In this document: in pieces, positions 1,163 through 52,935 of the stretch
Layout of the letters: the number at the start of each line of letters is the position of its first letter
Numbering within the stretch: the first letter of the stretch is position 1
NCBI GenBank assembly: GCA_027307235.1
Contig: DAHUXH010000007.1
Span: 1 to 64,000, forward strand
DNA: 64,000 nucleotides
DNA from: Vulcanimicrobiota bacterium
Lineage (GTDB): Bacteria; Vulcanimicrobiota; Vulcanimicrobiia; Vulcanimicrobiales; Vulcanimicrobiaceae
Reading direction: 5' to 3'
Position numbers and translations under genes: made by a program
The notes under the pieces: generated by a model
The model's database searches: none
What the model saw: only the letters and a program-made list of their open reading frames with translations
Told to the model about the DNA's origin: nothing

Positions 1163-1849
1163 CTACATCGCGCGGCCGTCAAACGTTTCGGCATCGATGC
1201 GGTCGATGAAGGCTTGAAGCTCGGCGGCGCGCTGCCCGCCGATACGCTTGGCGGCGCGGGTCACGAGATGCGGCGGAATGTCTTTGATGAAGCCGCGCAG
1301 TTGTTGAATCGCGGGCGCGAACGATGATGCCTGTTCGCCGGTCAGCGCTATCATGCGGGCTTGCGCAATCGCACCGAGAAAATCCAACGAGTCGGCGTCG
1401 TGCAGCACGATGGCCTCGGGCCGCGTTCCCGGATCGCGGTAGTACATGTGCGCGCGCTCGGCTGCTTGCACGGCCGCGAGCTTGCTCATCGGAAAGCCGG
1501 CCTTTCGCAGAACCGCTCCGCTTTCGAGTGCCGCACAATCACCGTGCTCCATCTTCGCATCGGCGCACGGGCGAAAGGCCGCCATGTCATGCAGGAACGA
1601 CGCGGCGAAGAGCACGTCGGTGTCAATGGCGAGATGGTCCGCGCTAGCAAGTTCGAGTGCGACGCGATAGTTGCGTTCGGAGTGTTGCCATCCCCACGCG
1701 GGATGTTTGAATGTGGAGCGAGCCAGCGAATAGAGTGCGGTCTTCCACGCTGAATCGAGCGGGATTCCCGTGACCGTCGTTGGTTGGGCGCTCCCCGCTG
1801 CCTGCATCGAAGCGAAAGCGAGGAGCACCAGGGCCGTCAAGCGTCTCAT
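1163..1849 (-). CDS. Secreted HD-domain phosphohydrolase-like protein
   Basis: A 228-residue protein with a short signal peptide (MRRL followed by a hydrophobic run ending near SAQ). An HD metal-dependent phosphohydrolase core is visible: a first histidine in WQHSERNY, the paired His-Asp in SFLHDMA and a later Asp in LHDADSLDFLG. HD domains hydrolyse phosphoester or nucleotide substrates; a signal peptide on one is less common and suggests a periplasmic substrate, which cannot be named. It is the last gene of a minus-strand unit after the CuA-type cupredoxin and the Cyc2-like cytochrome; the gap to the latter is 36 bases, so co-transcription is likely, but a shared function is only inferred. 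Confidence 0.7.
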   Translation of the reverse strand: MRRLTALVLLAFASMQAAGSAQPTTVTGIPLDSAWKTALYSLARSTFKHPAWGWQHSERNYRVALELASADHLAIDTDVLFAASFLHDMAAFRPCADAKMEHGDCAALESGAVLRKAGFPMSKLAAVQAAERAHMYYRDPGTRPEAIVLHDADSLDFLGAIAQARMIALTGEQASSFAPAIQQLRGFIKDIPPHLVTRAAKRIGGQRAAELQAFIDRIDAETFDGRAM

Positions 1850-1885
1850 CGACGCCTTCTTCGCAGGCGAGTGCGAGTGTGCCCG

Positions 1886-3070
1886 CTATGGACCGAGCGG
1901 TGTCGTCCACCAGAGCGTCCAGCGATAATCCGGACCGCCGCTCGGATTGCTGGAGTGACCGCTCAAGCCGGCTTCGACGTACGCGTGGAAGTGCGGCAGG
2001 TGCGGAAGTTGGAAGGCGAGATCGATGTTGCCGAAGTGCGTTGTCGTTCCCAATCCGTCGTCGGTGAGGTCGGAACGTACGCCGAGCACGGCGCCGTTGT
2101 TGAACAGCGGTTCGTATATCTCGGCGCTGTACGCATGGCTGTTTGCGCGTCCGAGTTGATTGCCGAGCACATCGAGGCCGGGATTGGAGTCGTTGCCCAC
2201 TTGATAGGTGAGGAGCACGCCGGGTAGACCGCTTGCCGACGGGTCTTCTTGAACGTATCCTGCGAATGTGGTGTAGTGATCCGCCGCGCCGGTGGAAACA
2301 ATGAAGCTCCCAAGCGTGCCGTAGGCGCCGTACTCGAGCGGCTGATCGCCGCGCGCACGTGCGAGTTTCCATTGGAACGTCTTGTCGGTGCCGGGTGCCG
2401 GGCTGAAGTCGCTGGCACCGATGATGTTTGCGCTTCCCAGCAGCCATCCGGCTTCGGCGTCGAGTGGGCCGCGAACGTAGGTGACCTTCGTTCCCCAACG
2501 ATTGCCGTCGGTTTGATACTGATGTTCGCCGACGAGAATTTCCGGCGTCTGCAACGGTGAAAGGTCGAACCATTGGCTAAACGGCGACGGTCCGGGTGAT
2601 TCGAGCTTTCCAAGAAACAGATGGCCGTCGCGGTGGAACAGGTTGTTGTAGGTGAACCATAACGTGTCGAGCGATCCGCCGGTTTGATCGTTTTGCAGCA
2701 GCCATTGCTGCACGTGATAGGTCACGTCCGGAGCGACGTAGCCCGCTGCGTGGATCGCCGCATTGCCGAACGACGTCGTGAACGTCGGCGAATTGGCGCT
2801 CACGCCGCCGGTCGAATCGCCGTTGAATTGCTCGCCCAGCCAAACCGGCGAGGTCGTGTCGAGCACGTCGCGCCGCAGCGACGCGTAGCCGGTGCGTTGG
2901 ACGTAGCGGCCGTAGGCGTTGAGCGCAGGCACCATCGTGTGGCACGCGCTGCATTTGAGGCCATACGCCTTGGCGAACATCGGCATGGCGCTCGCGCTTG
3001 CGGTCAGGGCGACGCTGAATGCGGCTATTCCGATCGCCGTGACGGCGAAACGGACGCGTGCCGCGTTCAC
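1886..3070 (-). CDS. Cyc2-like fused monoheme cytochrome c / outer-membrane barrel (paralogue 1)
   Basis: From the chosen GTG the protein has 394 residues: a signal peptide, one heme-binding CSACH (Cys40, Cys43, His44) inside the pattern MFAKAYGLKCSACH...P.LNAYG...TGY, then about 330 residues rich in alternating aromatic and polar residues that look like beta strands. This layout matches Cyc2-type fused cytochrome-porins, known from Fe(II) oxidisers, where one heme sits in a barrel and passes electrons across the outer membrane. The GTG start at 3070 overlaps the stop of the upstream cupredoxin gene as GTGA; an ATG at 3133 would lie inside that gene and leave an unlikely N-terminus. A second copy lies at 50776-51897. 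Iron oxidation is an inference; the heme motif is seen directly. Confidence 0.6.
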   Translation of the reverse strand: MNAARVRFAVTAIGIAAFSVALTASASAMPMFAKAYGLKCSACHTMVPALNAYGRYVQRTGYASLRRDVLDTTSPVWLGEQFNGDSTGGVSANSPTFTTSFGNAAIHAAGYVAPDVTYHVQQWLLQNDQTGGSLDTLWFTYNNLFHRDGHLFLGKLESPGPSPFSQWFDLSPLQTPEILVGEHQYQTDGNRWGTKVTYVRGPLDAEAGWLLGSANIIGASDFSPAPGTDKTFQWKLARARGDQPLEYGAYGTLGSFIVSTGAADHYTTFAGYVQEDPSASGLPGVLLTYQVGNDSNPGLDVLGNQLGRANSHAYSAEIYEPLFNNGAVLGVRSDLTDDGLGTTTHFGNIDLAFQLPHLPHFHAYVEAGLSGHSSNPSGGPDYRWTLWWTTPLGP

Positions 3071-3426
3071 GGTGCGACCACGTGAATGACGAGCTTCATG
3101 TTGGGATGACCCGCTCCGCAGACGACCGAGCATGGGACGGTAAACGTTCCCGCTTTCTTGGGCGTGAAGGTCACAGTCACGAACTTGCCCGGGAGAATCA
3201 TGGTGTCGGGGATGCCGAGTTCATCGGACTTCAAGCCATGGACGCCCTCGCTCGAGGTCAGTCGAAGCGTGGTCGGTTCGTTGACGTTGACGGTGATCTC
3301 GGCGGGCGTGAACTTCCAGTTCGAAGCGACGATGTCGATGGTCGGATGGGCCGAGGCTCTCGGAGGTCCCTGGAAGGCCAGCAGCGCCAAGACGCAGAGA
3401 ATGACGGGCACGATGAGGCGTTTCAT
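3067..3426 (-). CDS. Secreted CuA-type cupredoxin (cytochrome oxidase subunit II-like)
   Basis: A 119-residue protein with a signal peptide (cleavage probably after ASA) and a single cupredoxin domain. The C-terminal loop CSVVCGAGHPNM gives Cys99, Cys103, His107 and Met110, and an upstream His63 completes the ligand set of a binuclear CuA centre as in cytochrome c oxidase subunit II and nitrous oxide reductase. The usual Glu between the cysteines is Val. There is no membrane anchor beyond the signal peptide and no oxidase subunit I nearby, so it is probably a soluble periplasmic electron carrier. It is translationally coupled (GTGA overlap) to the Cyc2-like cytochrome gene, which suggests the two exchange electrons. 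Confidence 0.75.
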   Translation of the reverse strand: MKRLIVPVILCVLALLAFQGPPRASAHPTIDIVASNWKFTPAEITVNVNEPTTLRLTSSEGVHGLKSDELGIPDTMILPGKFVTVTFTPKKAGTFTVPCSVVCGAGHPNMKLVIHVVAP

Positions 3427-49168: not shown

Positions 49169-50103
49169 ACGTGCGAGGCGTCCGGTAACAGCGGGAGCCG
49201 CACGACGAAGCGCGCGCCGGTCGTGCCGTGCGTAGATTCGAGTGCAACCGTCCCGCCGTGCGCCTGCGCGACCCAGCGCACGATCGAGAGCCCGAGTCCG
49301 CTTCCCGTTGCCGTCGTCGGATCGACACGAAAAAATCGTTTGAAGATCTCGGCGCGCGCCGGCTCCGGCACGCCCGGGCCGTCGTCATTCACCACAAGCT
49401 CGGCGACCGTACGTCGGGAAGCGACCTCGATCGTGATCCTGCTCCTCGCATAGCGCAGCGCGTTGTCGATCAGATTGCGCGCCGCTTCGCGCAGGCGGCG
49501 TTCGTCGCCGTTGACGATGGCGCTCGACACATCGAGATCGAGGGTGATCCGTTGCGAGGATGCGCGCTGCGTGAATTCGCGCGCGACGCTGCGCGCGACG
49601 GCAGCGAGATCGACGGGCTCGCGCTGGAGCAACTCGGGCCGTGGATCGCGCGCGAGCGTCAACAGTTCGGCAACAACCGTCGAGGCGTCAAGCGCAGAAG
49701 CTGCGATCAGATCGAAGGCGTCTTTCGCCTCGCCGTCGACCGAACTCGCGTGCGCCTGAGCGACGGCGGCGATGGTTGCGAGCGGCGAGCGCAGTTCGTG
49801 CGCGGCGTCGGCGGCAAAGCGCCGCTCGGCCTCGCGCGCCTCGATCAGCGGGGAGAGTGACGCGCGCGCGAGCAGAAGGGCCGCGGTGCCGACGACGATC
49901 AGCAACGGCAGGTCGATGGCGAGCAGCATGAGCGCGACGCGCTGCAGCGCGGCGACGTAGGCGGCCTGGCCTTGCGGCGTCTGCAGAACCGGCGCGAGCT
50001 GATCGTGATACTGCAGGGCGATCAACGCGAACGCGGCGCCGCTCAAAGCGGCGAGCACGACGGCGAAGACGGCGAGATACCGAGCGGTGAGCCGCGCGAT
50101 CAC
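49150..50103 (-). CDS. Sensor histidine kinase of the cytochrome/cupredoxin operon
   Basis: A 317-residue membrane kinase. Two helices (about 9-30 and 55-78) enclose a short periplasmic loop of about 25 residues. The phosphoacceptor is His102 in AADAAHELRSPL; the catalytic domain has the N box ARNLIDNALRYA, DDGPGVP and GSGLGLSIVRW. The GTG start overlaps the response-regulator stop as GTGA. The tiny sensor loop suggests sensing within the membrane or through a partner protein. Position at the end of an operon with cytochrome, cupredoxin and Sco genes makes redox or copper/iron sensing a reasonable inference. Confidence 0.9.
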   Translation of the reverse strand: MIARLTARYLAVFAVVLAALSGAAFALIALQYHDQLAPVLQTPQGQAAYVAALQRVALMLLAIDLPLLIVVGTAALLLARASLSPLIEAREAERRFAADAAHELRSPLATIAAVAQAHASSVDGEAKDAFDLIAASALDASTVVAELLTLARDPRPELLQREPVDLAAVARSVAREFTQRASSQRITLDLDVSSAIVNGDERRLREAARNLIDNALRYARSRITIEVASRRTVAELVVNDDGPGVPEPARAEIFKRFFRVDPTTATGSGLGLSIVRWVAQAHGGTVALESTHGTTGARFVVRLPLLPDASHVHAPPK

Positions 50104-50768
50104 GTCACGAGCTTGTAGCCGACGCCCCAGACGGTCTCGATGATGCGTTCGCCGCCCAGTGCTTTGAGTTTCTTGCGCAGCTGACTGACGTAGACGTCGA
50201 CGATGTTGCTCGAGCCGTCGAAGTCGTAGTCCCACACTTTTTCGAGCAGCTGCGTTCGCGAGAACGCGATGTTCGCGTTGCGTGCAAGGAATTCGAGCAG
50301 GCGAAACTCGGTCGTTCCCAGATCGAGTTCCCGCTGATCGAAGATCGCGATGCGCGCACCGAGGTCGATGCGCAAGCGCCCCGCTTCCAGATTGCGTGTG
50401 AACGGGCGATCGCCGCGGCGTAGCATCGCATTGAGGCGTGCGATCAACTCCTCGGGGACGAACGGTTTGACCAGATAGTCGTCGGCCCCGTCGTCGAGGC
50501 CGGCAATACGATCTTCGACCGCATCGCGCGCGGTGAGCATGAGGATCGGTGTGGCGATGCCGTCGGCCCGCGCTCGACGCGCAACCGCGAAGCCGTCCGC
50601 TTTGGGCAGGACGACGTCGACGATTGCCGCGTCATAGGTTTCGCGCAGGAGCAGATCGAGGCCGGCTTCGCCGTCGGCGGCGATGTCGACCGCGAACTTG
50701 CGCAGTTCGAGCAGCGTGCGCACGGAGTTCGCGATCGCCGGATTATCCTCGATCACGAGGATCCGCAT
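50100..50768 (-). CDS. OmpR/PhoB family response regulator
   Basis: A 222-residue regulator. The receiver domain has acidic Glu-Asp in VIEDN, phosphoacceptor Asp51 (AAIVDVVLPK), Thr in LMLTARD and Lys101 in YLVKPF. The C-terminal winged helix ends with VDVYVSQLRKKLKALGG and IIETVWGVGYKLVT, typical of OmpR-type DNA-binding domains. It follows the Cyc2-like gene by 7 bases and is coupled to the kinase gene, so the operon encodes its own regulatory pair. Confidence 0.93.
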   Translation of the reverse strand: MRILVIEDNPAIANSVRTLLELRKFAVDIAADGEAGLDLLLRETYDAAIVDVVLPKADGFAVARRARADGIATPILMLTARDAVEDRIAGLDDGADDYLVKPFVPEELIARLNAMLRRGDRPFTRNLEAGRLRIDLGARIAIFDQRELDLGTTEFRLLEFLARNANIAFSRTQLLEKVWDYDFDGSSNIVDVYVSQLRKKLKALGGERIIETVWGVGYKLVT

Positions 50769-50775
50769 CTGCGAA

Positions 50776-51897
50776 TTATAGACCCTTCGGCCAGGGCACC
50801 GCCAGGGTCAGGGCTCCGCCGAGGTGACTGATGCCTCCGCCGATCGGCTGCACGTTTTGGATCAGCAGCCGCGCATGCGGCGTCACGTGGAACGCGGCAT
50901 AGTACACGAGGTCCCGCTGGATGAAGGGCACCGCTTGCGCATCGTAGCGGGCGGCGAGGTAGGCGTGATCGGTGACATAGTATTTCAGGCGGAAGTAGCC
51001 GCCGCTCGAGCCGACGATGGAGCCGAAGCCGTCGGCGTTCGTATCGCGGCCCCACCATTGCTCGGCTTGCAGGTCGAGCCGATTGATGCGGCTGTGCGCG
51101 AACAGCCCTTCGCGACGGTAGCCGTCGACATAGGTCGCGCCGAAGTCGGGCTCGTTCTTGCGCGCGCCGATTAGCCCGGCGGCGCCGACATCCACGTTCT
51201 TCGTCAGCGGCGTGTGCGCGAACAGACCGATTTCGGGCTGGTCGGGGTGGGTCGTCTCGCCCGTATCGACGGGTTTTCCGCCGTATGCCGCGCCTTTGAA
51301 TTCACCGACCGAGACCGTCGCATCGAAGATCGTGCTGCCGACCGTGCGTTCCATCTGCATGCCCCAGCGCGGCGAGGAGAGCGGAAGATCGTTCTGCTCG
51401 ACGTGCGCCGCGTAGTAACCGTAGGGAGCTAGGTCGTCCAGGCGCTGACCCGGCGATTGCTGCAACGGCAATTCGAAGAGACCCAGACGGTACAGCGTCT
51501 TCACGTGCTCGTTGTAGGTTGCGAGGTAGCCCAAGTAGAGGCCGCTCGGACCGCCGCCCGCGCCGAGATTGTAGTGGACGAATGCGCTCACTTTTCCGAT
51601 GTCAGCGTTGGAGAGCAGAATGCCGCCCGGCGTGAAGCGCCGATTGCCGCCGGTGGGATCCTTTTCGTATTCCATCTGGTAGCGGATGGCGACGCCGGAG
51701 GTGCCATGCTTGGGCGCCGATAGTTGGTAGCCGTGTGCGCGAAACGCAACGCCGAATGCATTGAGTTCGGGAAGCACGCTGTGACATGCGCCGCACTGCA
51801 GATGATAGCGTTGCGCGAAGAGCGGAATGGCGAGCGCCGGTCGCGTGCACGCGAGCACGCAGAGCGCGGCCAGGGTGAGCAGGATGCTATTGCGCAA
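50776..51897 (-). CDS. Cyc2-like fused monoheme cytochrome c / outer-membrane barrel (paralogue 2)
   Basis: A 373-residue protein with a signal peptide (to about residue 23), one heme site CGACH (Cys35, Cys38, His39) in IPLFAQRYHLQCGACHSVLP followed by ELNAFG...AHGYQ, then about 320 residues of beta-strand character (GLYLGYLATYNEH, YFRLKYYVTDHAYLAARYD). The heme-region pattern and architecture match paralogue 1 at 1886-3070 and the Cyc2 cytochrome-porins of iron oxidisers. The TTG start is supported by GGAGAGA with good spacing and overlaps the cupredoxin stop by 11 bases. Proposed role: electron transfer across the outer membrane to or from the copper lipoprotein encoded upstream. The direction and donor are unknown. 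Confidence 0.62.
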   Translation of the reverse strand: MRNSILLTLAALCVLACTRPALAIPLFAQRYHLQCGACHSVLPELNAFGVAFRAHGYQLSAPKHGTSGVAIRYQMEYEKDPTGGNRRFTPGGILLSNADIGKVSAFVHYNLGAGGGPSGLYLGYLATYNEHVKTLYRLGLFELPLQQSPGQRLDDLAPYGYYAAHVEQNDLPLSSPRWGMQMERTVGSTIFDATVSVGEFKGAAYGGKPVDTGETTHPDQPEIGLFAHTPLTKNVDVGAAGLIGARKNEPDFGATYVDGYRREGLFAHSRINRLDLQAEQWWGRDTNADGFGSIVGSSGGYFRLKYYVTDHAYLAARYDAQAVPFIQRDLVYYAAFHVTPHARLLIQNVQPIGGGISHLGGALTLAVPWPKGL

Positions 51898-52372
51898 CGA
51901 TCTCTCCTCGCATTTTTCCCAAGTAGTGATAGAAACAGCCGTAGAAATATGTTCCCGGTTGATCGACCCGGATCAATCCCGACGCCGTTCCCGCAGGCAA
52001 AGCGCCGGTGGTCCAAGCTTGCGAAAGCACCTGCGCGCTTTGCGGCACGGTCAGCGACGCTGAACCGATCGGTGACGATCCGTCGGGCAGCGGCGGCGCG
52101 TACGCCGTCTTGCTCACGAAGGTCGCGGTGTGTACCGTGTTGTCGCTGTTGACGAACTGTATGGCATCGCCGACGGCGACACTGGTGACCGGCGGGCTGT
52201 AGCCGAGCACGGGGCCGGCCGGCGTCGAGGTCAATCCGTGCAACGTGAGGTTCACGTCGATGGTGACGACGCCGTTTCCGCCGACGGCGGAAAGCGTGCT
52301 GGCCGGTTGTCCGCCCGGCGTACAGCCGGTTGCGAGCAGGGCCAAGAGGCCGAAGAGAACGACACGTTTCAT
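51887..52372 (-). CDS. Type-1 copper cupredoxin lipoprotein
   Basis: A 161-residue lipoprotein: signal peptide with lipobox LATGC (Cys17), then one cupredoxin domain. The copper ligands follow the plastocyanin pattern: His81 (NTVHTATF), Cys146-x2-His149-x4-Met154 in YGCFYHYLGKM. It is therefore a membrane-tethered mononuclear blue-copper electron carrier, comparable in role to rusticyanin-type carriers. Between H81 and the C-terminal loop there is an insert of about 50 residues. Its start overlaps the Sco stop (ATGA) and its stop overlaps the Cyc2-like gene, so the three are made together. Confidence 0.8.
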   Translation of the reverse strand: MKRVVLFGLLALLATGCTPGGQPASTLSAVGGNGVVTIDVNLTLHGLTSTPAGPVLGYSPPVTSVAVGDAIQFVNSDNTVHTATFVSKTAYAPPLPDGSSPIGSASLTVPQSAQVLSQAWTTGALPAGTASGLIRVDQPGTYFYGCFYHYLGKMRGEIVAQ

Positions 52373-52935
52373 TGAGAGAGAGTACTCCAATCGGTGCGCA
52401 CGGCATTGAGGATTTGCTGGTCGAGATGATTCGACGCGAGCAGGGCGCTGCGAACGCGGCCGTGCGTGTCGAGCAAGTAGACAAACGTGGTATGAACGTC
52501 CGCGAACCCGTTCTTGCCGCGCTGCGCGAGGACGTCGAAGTCGCGCATCACGGCGTGAACGTCGGAACTCGCGCCGCTCGCGACGATCCACGTTCGCGGG
52601 TCGGCTTGAAACTCCGTGGCGATCTTGCGCATGTCGGCGGCGGAATCGTGCTCGGGGTCGAGCGTGATCGTCAAGAAATGCACGGGCCAGCGTTGCGCGC
52701 GCGCCTGCCGCACCGCTTCGCCCATCTGCGCGTTGACGAGCGGGCATGCGTCGGTGCAGTGCGCGGCGACGAAGGTAACGATCAGCGGCTCACCGCGCAG
52801 CGCCGCGAGCGTGAACGAGCGTCCCGTTTGATCGATCAAGTGCGGCGTACGCGCGAACGCGAGTGCCGGAGCCGCCGTCAGCAGCAGCGCGATCAGCGCC
52901 GCCGCGCGCGCCCAAGGTGAGTGCATGCGGGGCAT
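52369..52935 (-). CDS. SCO1/SenC family copper chaperone, exported
   Basis: A 188-residue protein with an N-terminal signal or anchor helix and a thioredoxin-fold Sco domain. Copper ligands are Cys60 and Cys64 (HCTDACP) and His148 (DVHTTFVYLLD). LTITLDPEHDSAADM and the HTTFVYLLDTHGRV ending are typical. Sco proteins load copper into CuA-type or related copper proteins; the adjacent copper lipoprotein is the likely client here. An ATG three codons later (52926) is an equally good start. It lies 51 bases after the TPR gene. Confidence 0.88.
   Translation of the reverse strand: MPRMHSPWARAAALIALLLTAAPALAFARTPHLIDQTGRSFTLAALRGEPLIVTFVAAHCTDACPLVNAQMGEAVRQARAQRWPVHFLTITLDPEHDSAADMRKIATEFQADPRTWIVASGASSDVHAVMRDFDVLAQRGKNGFADVHTTFVYLLDTHGRVRSALLASNHLDQQILNAVRTDWSTLSQ

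Follow-up and report, generated by a model that had tools for sequence, protein, structure and literature searches.

CuA centres are built-in sites of oxidases and of N2O reductase. To our knowledge, every well-characterised CuA site is an electron-transfer site, PmoD excepted, and no free CuA protein occurring in nature has been shown to work as an electron carrier; our literature searches found none either. PmoD, from methane and ammonia oxidisers, resembles the protein described here in having a CuA-type centre that belongs to neither an oxidase nor N2O reductase, but its site lies across a dimer and is of the form C-x7-M-x-H, whereas ours has the canonical single-domain set. With the CuA domain of Thermus ba3 subunit II (2cua, PF00116) our protein shares the fold and the complete ligand set, and it differs in being free, secreted, without an anchor and apart from the organisms' own CoxB proteins.

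On the heme-porin side, the system to compare is Cyc2, the fused cytochrome-porin iron oxidase of Acidithiobacillus and Mariprofundus. Keffer et al. 2021 (PMC8406198) define Cyc2 by a signal peptide, a single CXXCH, the motif AXPXFAR[Q/K][T/Y] ahead of this heme site, PXL four residues after CXXCH, a length of at least 365 residues, a 16-stranded outer-membrane porin, Fe(II) oxidation and a match to the FeGenie HMM. In Acidithiobacillus, the rus operon is cyc2-cyc1-cup-coxBACD-rus (PMC10654088), which encodes an outer-membrane heme-porin, a periplasmic copper carrier and a heme-copper oxidase together. A Cyc2-like gene of Eremiobacterota has been reported from acid mine drainage with no partner given (PMC8357290), and our literature searches found no description of a CuA partner for it.

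A CuA-type cupredoxin gene overlapping a heme-barrel gene

The stretch of DNA analysed here (the window, 64,000 nucleotides) belongs to a 2.4-Mb MAG of Candidatus Eremiobacterota, a soil bacterium. On its minus strand, a gene for a secreted CuA-type cupredoxin of 119 residues (3067..3426) runs into one for a Cyc2-like single-heme beta-barrel protein of 394 residues, predicted to lie in the outer membrane (barrel 1; 1886..3070). The barrel 1 gene starts with GTG at 3070 and the CuA gene ends at 3067, giving a four-base overlap, GTGA (...ACC GTGA ACG). The first-pass annotation had placed both genes and their overlap correctly, and had also described the cupredoxin as having a complete CuA ligand set and no membrane anchor, both of which hold.

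All five ligands are present (H63, C99, C103, H107 and M110), and they are invariant in the 44 barrel-linked homologues from re-annotated pairs. The protein scores 30.6 bits against Pfam COX2 (PF00116; gathering cut-off 22) and 43.9 bits against Cupredoxin_1, and the closest solved structures by sequence search are the soluble CuA domains of the Thermus ba3 oxidase. Its AlphaFold model is confident (mean pLDDT 88.8), and Foldseek matches the model to 2cua and 6pty, with an rmsd of 1.4 A over 88 columns for 2cua. By inspection, residues 1 to about 26 form a Sec-type signal peptide (...ASA before HPT), and no second hydrophobic segment or other anchor is found in the 119 residues. Score, the H, C-x3-C, H and M set and fold all agree with a PF00116 CuA domain, and we identify the protein as a CuA cupredoxin. 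It does not have the features of CoxB: it has no anchor, it scores 40.6 bits against TIGR02866 (cut-off 147.7), and the organisms' own CoxB proteins group elsewhere. The predicted mature protein starts with His (ASA, then HPTID), a residue common to the closest relatives though not to all.

Barrel 1 shares several features with Cyc2. A signal peptide, assigned by inspection, ends in ...ASASA and is followed by MPMFAKAYGLKCSACH, with a single N-terminal CXXCH (CSACH, residues 40-44). A-x-P-x-F-A lies upstream, PAL stands four residues past the heme site (CSACH-TMV-PAL), and the 394 residues, above the minimum of 365 for Cyc2, leave a barrel-like remainder. The AlphaFold model, built from the window sequence aligned with homologues from the phylum, has 16 strands after the heme region, which at a mean pLDDT of 35 is only a hint. 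Where Cyc2 has AXPXFAR[Q/K][T/Y], barrel 1 reads AMPMFAKAY (R to K, Q/K to A); it also differs from Cyc2 in its shorter barrel and in belonging to a separate Eremiobacterota clade. HHalign aligns the barrel 1 family with Cyc2-type proteins of proteobacterial plasmids at E = 6e-11, a match driven by the heme region, and the canonical motif is present in the Burkholderiales and Methylocystis plasmid proteins. When the heme region is removed, this match is lost, and the demonstrable shared part is therefore the cytochrome domain. Sequence searches gave no significant match of barrel 1 to a solved structure, nor of either barrel in the window to a Pfam or NCBIfam family. The earlier label of "Cyc2-like" fits barrel 1, which departs from the strict Cyc2 definition in the upstream motif and is not a proven Cyc2.

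Thirty-six bp downstream of barrel 1, on the same strand, lies a gene for a secreted HD-domain protein (1163-1849) with a distant match to the PRK10119 phosphohydrolase. We considered it as an operon partner and found no homologue in 60 re-annotated neighbourhoods of relatives; it is probably outside the barrel-CuA unit.

Conservation of the pair and its linkage to oxidase genes

A search of 149 genomes from the phylum found homologues of the barrel in 116 and of the CuA protein in 123. Among the 86 barrel loci counted for pairing (E < 1e-50, in 69 genomes), 58 have a same-strand CuA gene directly upstream, covering 52 of the 69 genomes; the other 28 do not, some of them at contig ends. The probability of such placement by chance is about 3e-5 per genome. 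Fetching the 60 neighbourhoods and re-calling their genes gave 44 barrel-CuA pairs, in which the overlap is exactly four bases in 23 and the gap or overlap at most four bases in 31. Alignment distances of barrel and CuA protein correlate with r = 0.74 (maximum 0.32 in 2000 permutations), a value to which shared organismal ancestry contributes. The pairing is not peculiar to one genome and recurs across the class Eremiobacteria. In four loci from three genomes (L086, L090, L092 and L095), the barrel continues at its C-terminus, through a linker rich in Pro and Ala, into the CuA domain, and neither the heme motif nor the CuA motif is damaged; this fusion is the strongest evidence from sequence that the two proteins act on each other. 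Plasmid searches returned no barrel-CuA pairing outside the phylum: the Burkholderiales and Methylocystis Cyc2-type proteins were found without a CuA gene, and searches with CuA gave distant CuA-domain matches only.

Two further features of these neighbourhoods deserve mention. Two genomes assigned to different families have almost identical loci for a 470-aa barrel, neighbouring genes included (L102 and L105), which would suggest either cross-contamination of the MAGs or very recent transfer. Separately, barrel-CuA pairs repeatedly have NirJ1/AhbC-like and AhbD-like radical SAM genes close by, of the kind that serves the biosynthesis of heme d1 or the alternative route to heme (L120:3088-5347; also L126, L078, L074, L075 and L080).

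In a tree built from 81 CuA domains, the soluble CuA proteins, whether linked to a barrel, fused to one or neither, fall together (58 rows, SH-aLRT 91), and oxidase subunit II proteins of the ba3/cba kind form a group apart (21 rows, SH-aLRT 87). On this phylogeny, the CuA protein that accompanies the barrel is no oxidase subunit. Its linkage to oxidase genes is nonetheless real. A ba3-type COX1 lies within the same locus in 19 of the 44 pairs, matching the Thermus ba3 protein over its full length (E = 3e-118), and these oxidase loci have a separate CuA subunit II of about 155 aa. The host genome has the same ba3 oxidase island (L188), whose COX1 shows 75% identity; it lies on the contig of the window at ~173-175 kb, where it adjoins response regulators and a kinase. 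The window pair is not beside it, about 170 kb separating the two, and the rus-type set of cyc2-type gene, copper carrier and oxidase together is seen in the 19 relatives' loci and not in the window. The first-pass annotation had reckoned with the possibility that the CuA gene is found mainly with oxidase genes; since there are 44 pairs with the barrel, 19 of them also with COX1, and the CuA group is separate, this is not so. The linkage suggests that the route ends at a ba3 oxidase. A family of about 150 aa, F3, stands repeatedly beside ba3 oxidase and two-component genes (L074, L078, L084, L188 and others); its representative (L078:8050-8517) has no match in Pfam or NCBIfam.

The same linkage could be read differently, with the soluble protein delivering copper to the CuA site of the ba3 oxidase or helping to assemble that site, in the manner of Sco or PCuAC, instead of carrying electrons. 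The 19 pairs near a ba3 oxidase fit such a role, and PmoD offers the precedent of a CuA-forming protein that is not an oxidase and is tied to copper-dependent growth (PMC6189053). We nevertheless consider it unlikely, although it survives better than the other alternatives: in all 44 loci it is the barrel, and not the oxidase, to which the gene is coupled, the majority of pairs lack a neighbouring oxidase gene, and the fusions in the loci read join CuA to the barrel and never to an oxidase subunit. Moreover, the SCO1 gene of the window belongs to its second barrel operon and not to the operon of barrel 1 and CuA.

A candidate electron route through the CuA protein

The reading that we favour, with a probability of about 0.6, is that the Cyc2-like barrel is an outer-membrane conduit from which the soluble CuA protein would pass electrons to a ba3 oxidase, by analogy with the chain of Cyc2, rusticyanin and oxidase in acidophilic iron oxidisers. 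In its favour are the conserved coupling, the invariant ligands, the fusions, the correlated distances, the separate CuA group and the linkage to the oxidase. The barrel would lie in the outer membrane, where its one c-type heme, carried by an N-terminal plug, would take up an electron from an extracellular donor, possibly Fe(II) or another dissolved reductant. Made from one transcript with the barrel by coupled translation, the CuA protein would accept the electron at the heme, carry it across the periplasm and hand it to the subunit II CuA site of the ba3-type oxidase, which would reduce O2. Such a chain would depart from that of the rus operon in its carrier, which is CuA and not type-1 rusticyanin, and in its ba3-type oxidase; there is also no cyc1 in the window locus. 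Weighing against this reading are the low confidence of the barrel model, the departure from the strict Cyc2 motif, a homology to proteobacterial Cyc2-type proteins that is significant through the heme region only, the 28 barrel loci that lack a CuA gene directly upstream, and the distance of the pair from the oxidase in this genome. In addition, Vulcanimicrobium, the isolated member of the phylum, failed to grow lithotrophically on the donors tried, iron not being among those listed (PMC9758169).

Electrons could instead flow outward, with the CuA protein reducing the barrel heme and the heme an extracellular acceptor. The same parts are usable both ways and sequence cannot fix the direction, but the linkage to the oxidase and the Cyc2-type heme region fit inward flow, and no gene for a quinol-to-CuA donor is conserved in the loci; we regard outward flow as slightly less probable than a role in oxidase assembly. 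Least convincing is the view that the barrel is a porin which, with its heme and copper partner, senses or detoxifies O2, NO or metal and has no part in energy metabolism: response regulators, histidine kinases, universal stress proteins and NirJ/AhbD-like radical SAM genes do lie near several pairs, but many relatives have ba3 oxidase genes in the same locus, and CuA transfers electrons in the well-characterised proteins, PmoD excepted.

Returning to the inward route through CuA, we would tentatively extend it to the class, and propose that in Eremiobacteria a free, diffusible CuA protein may serve an outer-membrane heme-porin as its dedicated electron carrier, feeding a ba3 oxidase and tethered to the porin in some lineages. 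With a class-wide gene pair and its fusions in hand, the carrier role of CuA is directly testable. If true, the proposal would provide a candidate electron path for a widespread and barely cultured phylum, and extracellular oxidation would there be wired in a new way, with a CuA protein in the place of rusticyanin or cytochrome c.

A second heme-barrel with its own copper protein

The window holds a second heme-barrel gene on the minus strand (barrel 2; 50776..51897, 373 aa, heme site CGACH). It had been described from the outset as a paralogue of barrel 1 with a common heme-region pattern and a different copper partner, an interpretation that would suffer if the two proved unrelated beyond the heme motif. 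The pattern, an FAxxYxLxCxACH region followed by P-x-LNAxG and GY, is indeed common to both, reading FAKAYGLKCSACH..PALNAYG..GY in barrel 1 and FAQRYHLQCGACH..PELNAFG..GY in barrel 2, where AIPLFAQRY occupies the position of the Cyc2 motif. HHalign relates the two families at E = 2e-21 over 302 columns and, with the N-terminal 68 (P0001) or 64 (P0002) residues cut so as to remove the heme region, at E = 1.8e-4 over 236 columns (reversed control 0.07), a moderate relationship that extends beyond the heme motif. Barrel 2 forms a separate clade (SH-aLRT 99) with relatives at E < 1e-6 in 105 of the 149 genomes, and both subfamilies are present in 41 genomes.

Its copper partner is a plastocyanin-like type-1 copper lipoprotein (51887..52372, minus strand; C-F-Y-H-Y-L-G-K-M) whose gene overlaps that of barrel 2. 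Such a protein precedes barrel 2 in 20 of 20 loci, with C-x2-H-x4-M in 19 of them. The operon also contains a SCO1/SenC copper-assembly protein (52369..52935, minus strand; Pfam 77 bits) and a response regulator (50100..50768, minus strand). In most of the 20 relatives SCO1 keeps its place in the gene order, and it and a response regulator-kinase pair complete the operon, the order being barrel 2, regulator, kinase. The two homologous heme-barrel subfamilies are each tied to a copper protein of their own kind, CuA in 58 of 86 loci and type-1 in 20 of 20, which supports the pairing described in the first-pass annotation. The two routes may run at different potentials, and two parallel barrel-copper modules in one genome provide a natural comparison of a CuA with a type-1 copper route.

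Two smaller observations concern the barrels themselves. In-frame TAG codons in the barrel 2 orthologues of one genus were set aside: in the one that was read, L182, the codon is the natural stop, which the aligner had passed over. A third single-heme barrel (AVPLFAHRYGVSCQTCH) is encoded in the host genome on contig C17 (L191:5645-6727), where, with no copper-protein gene beside it, it comes after a predicted flavin-dependent monooxygenase-like gene.
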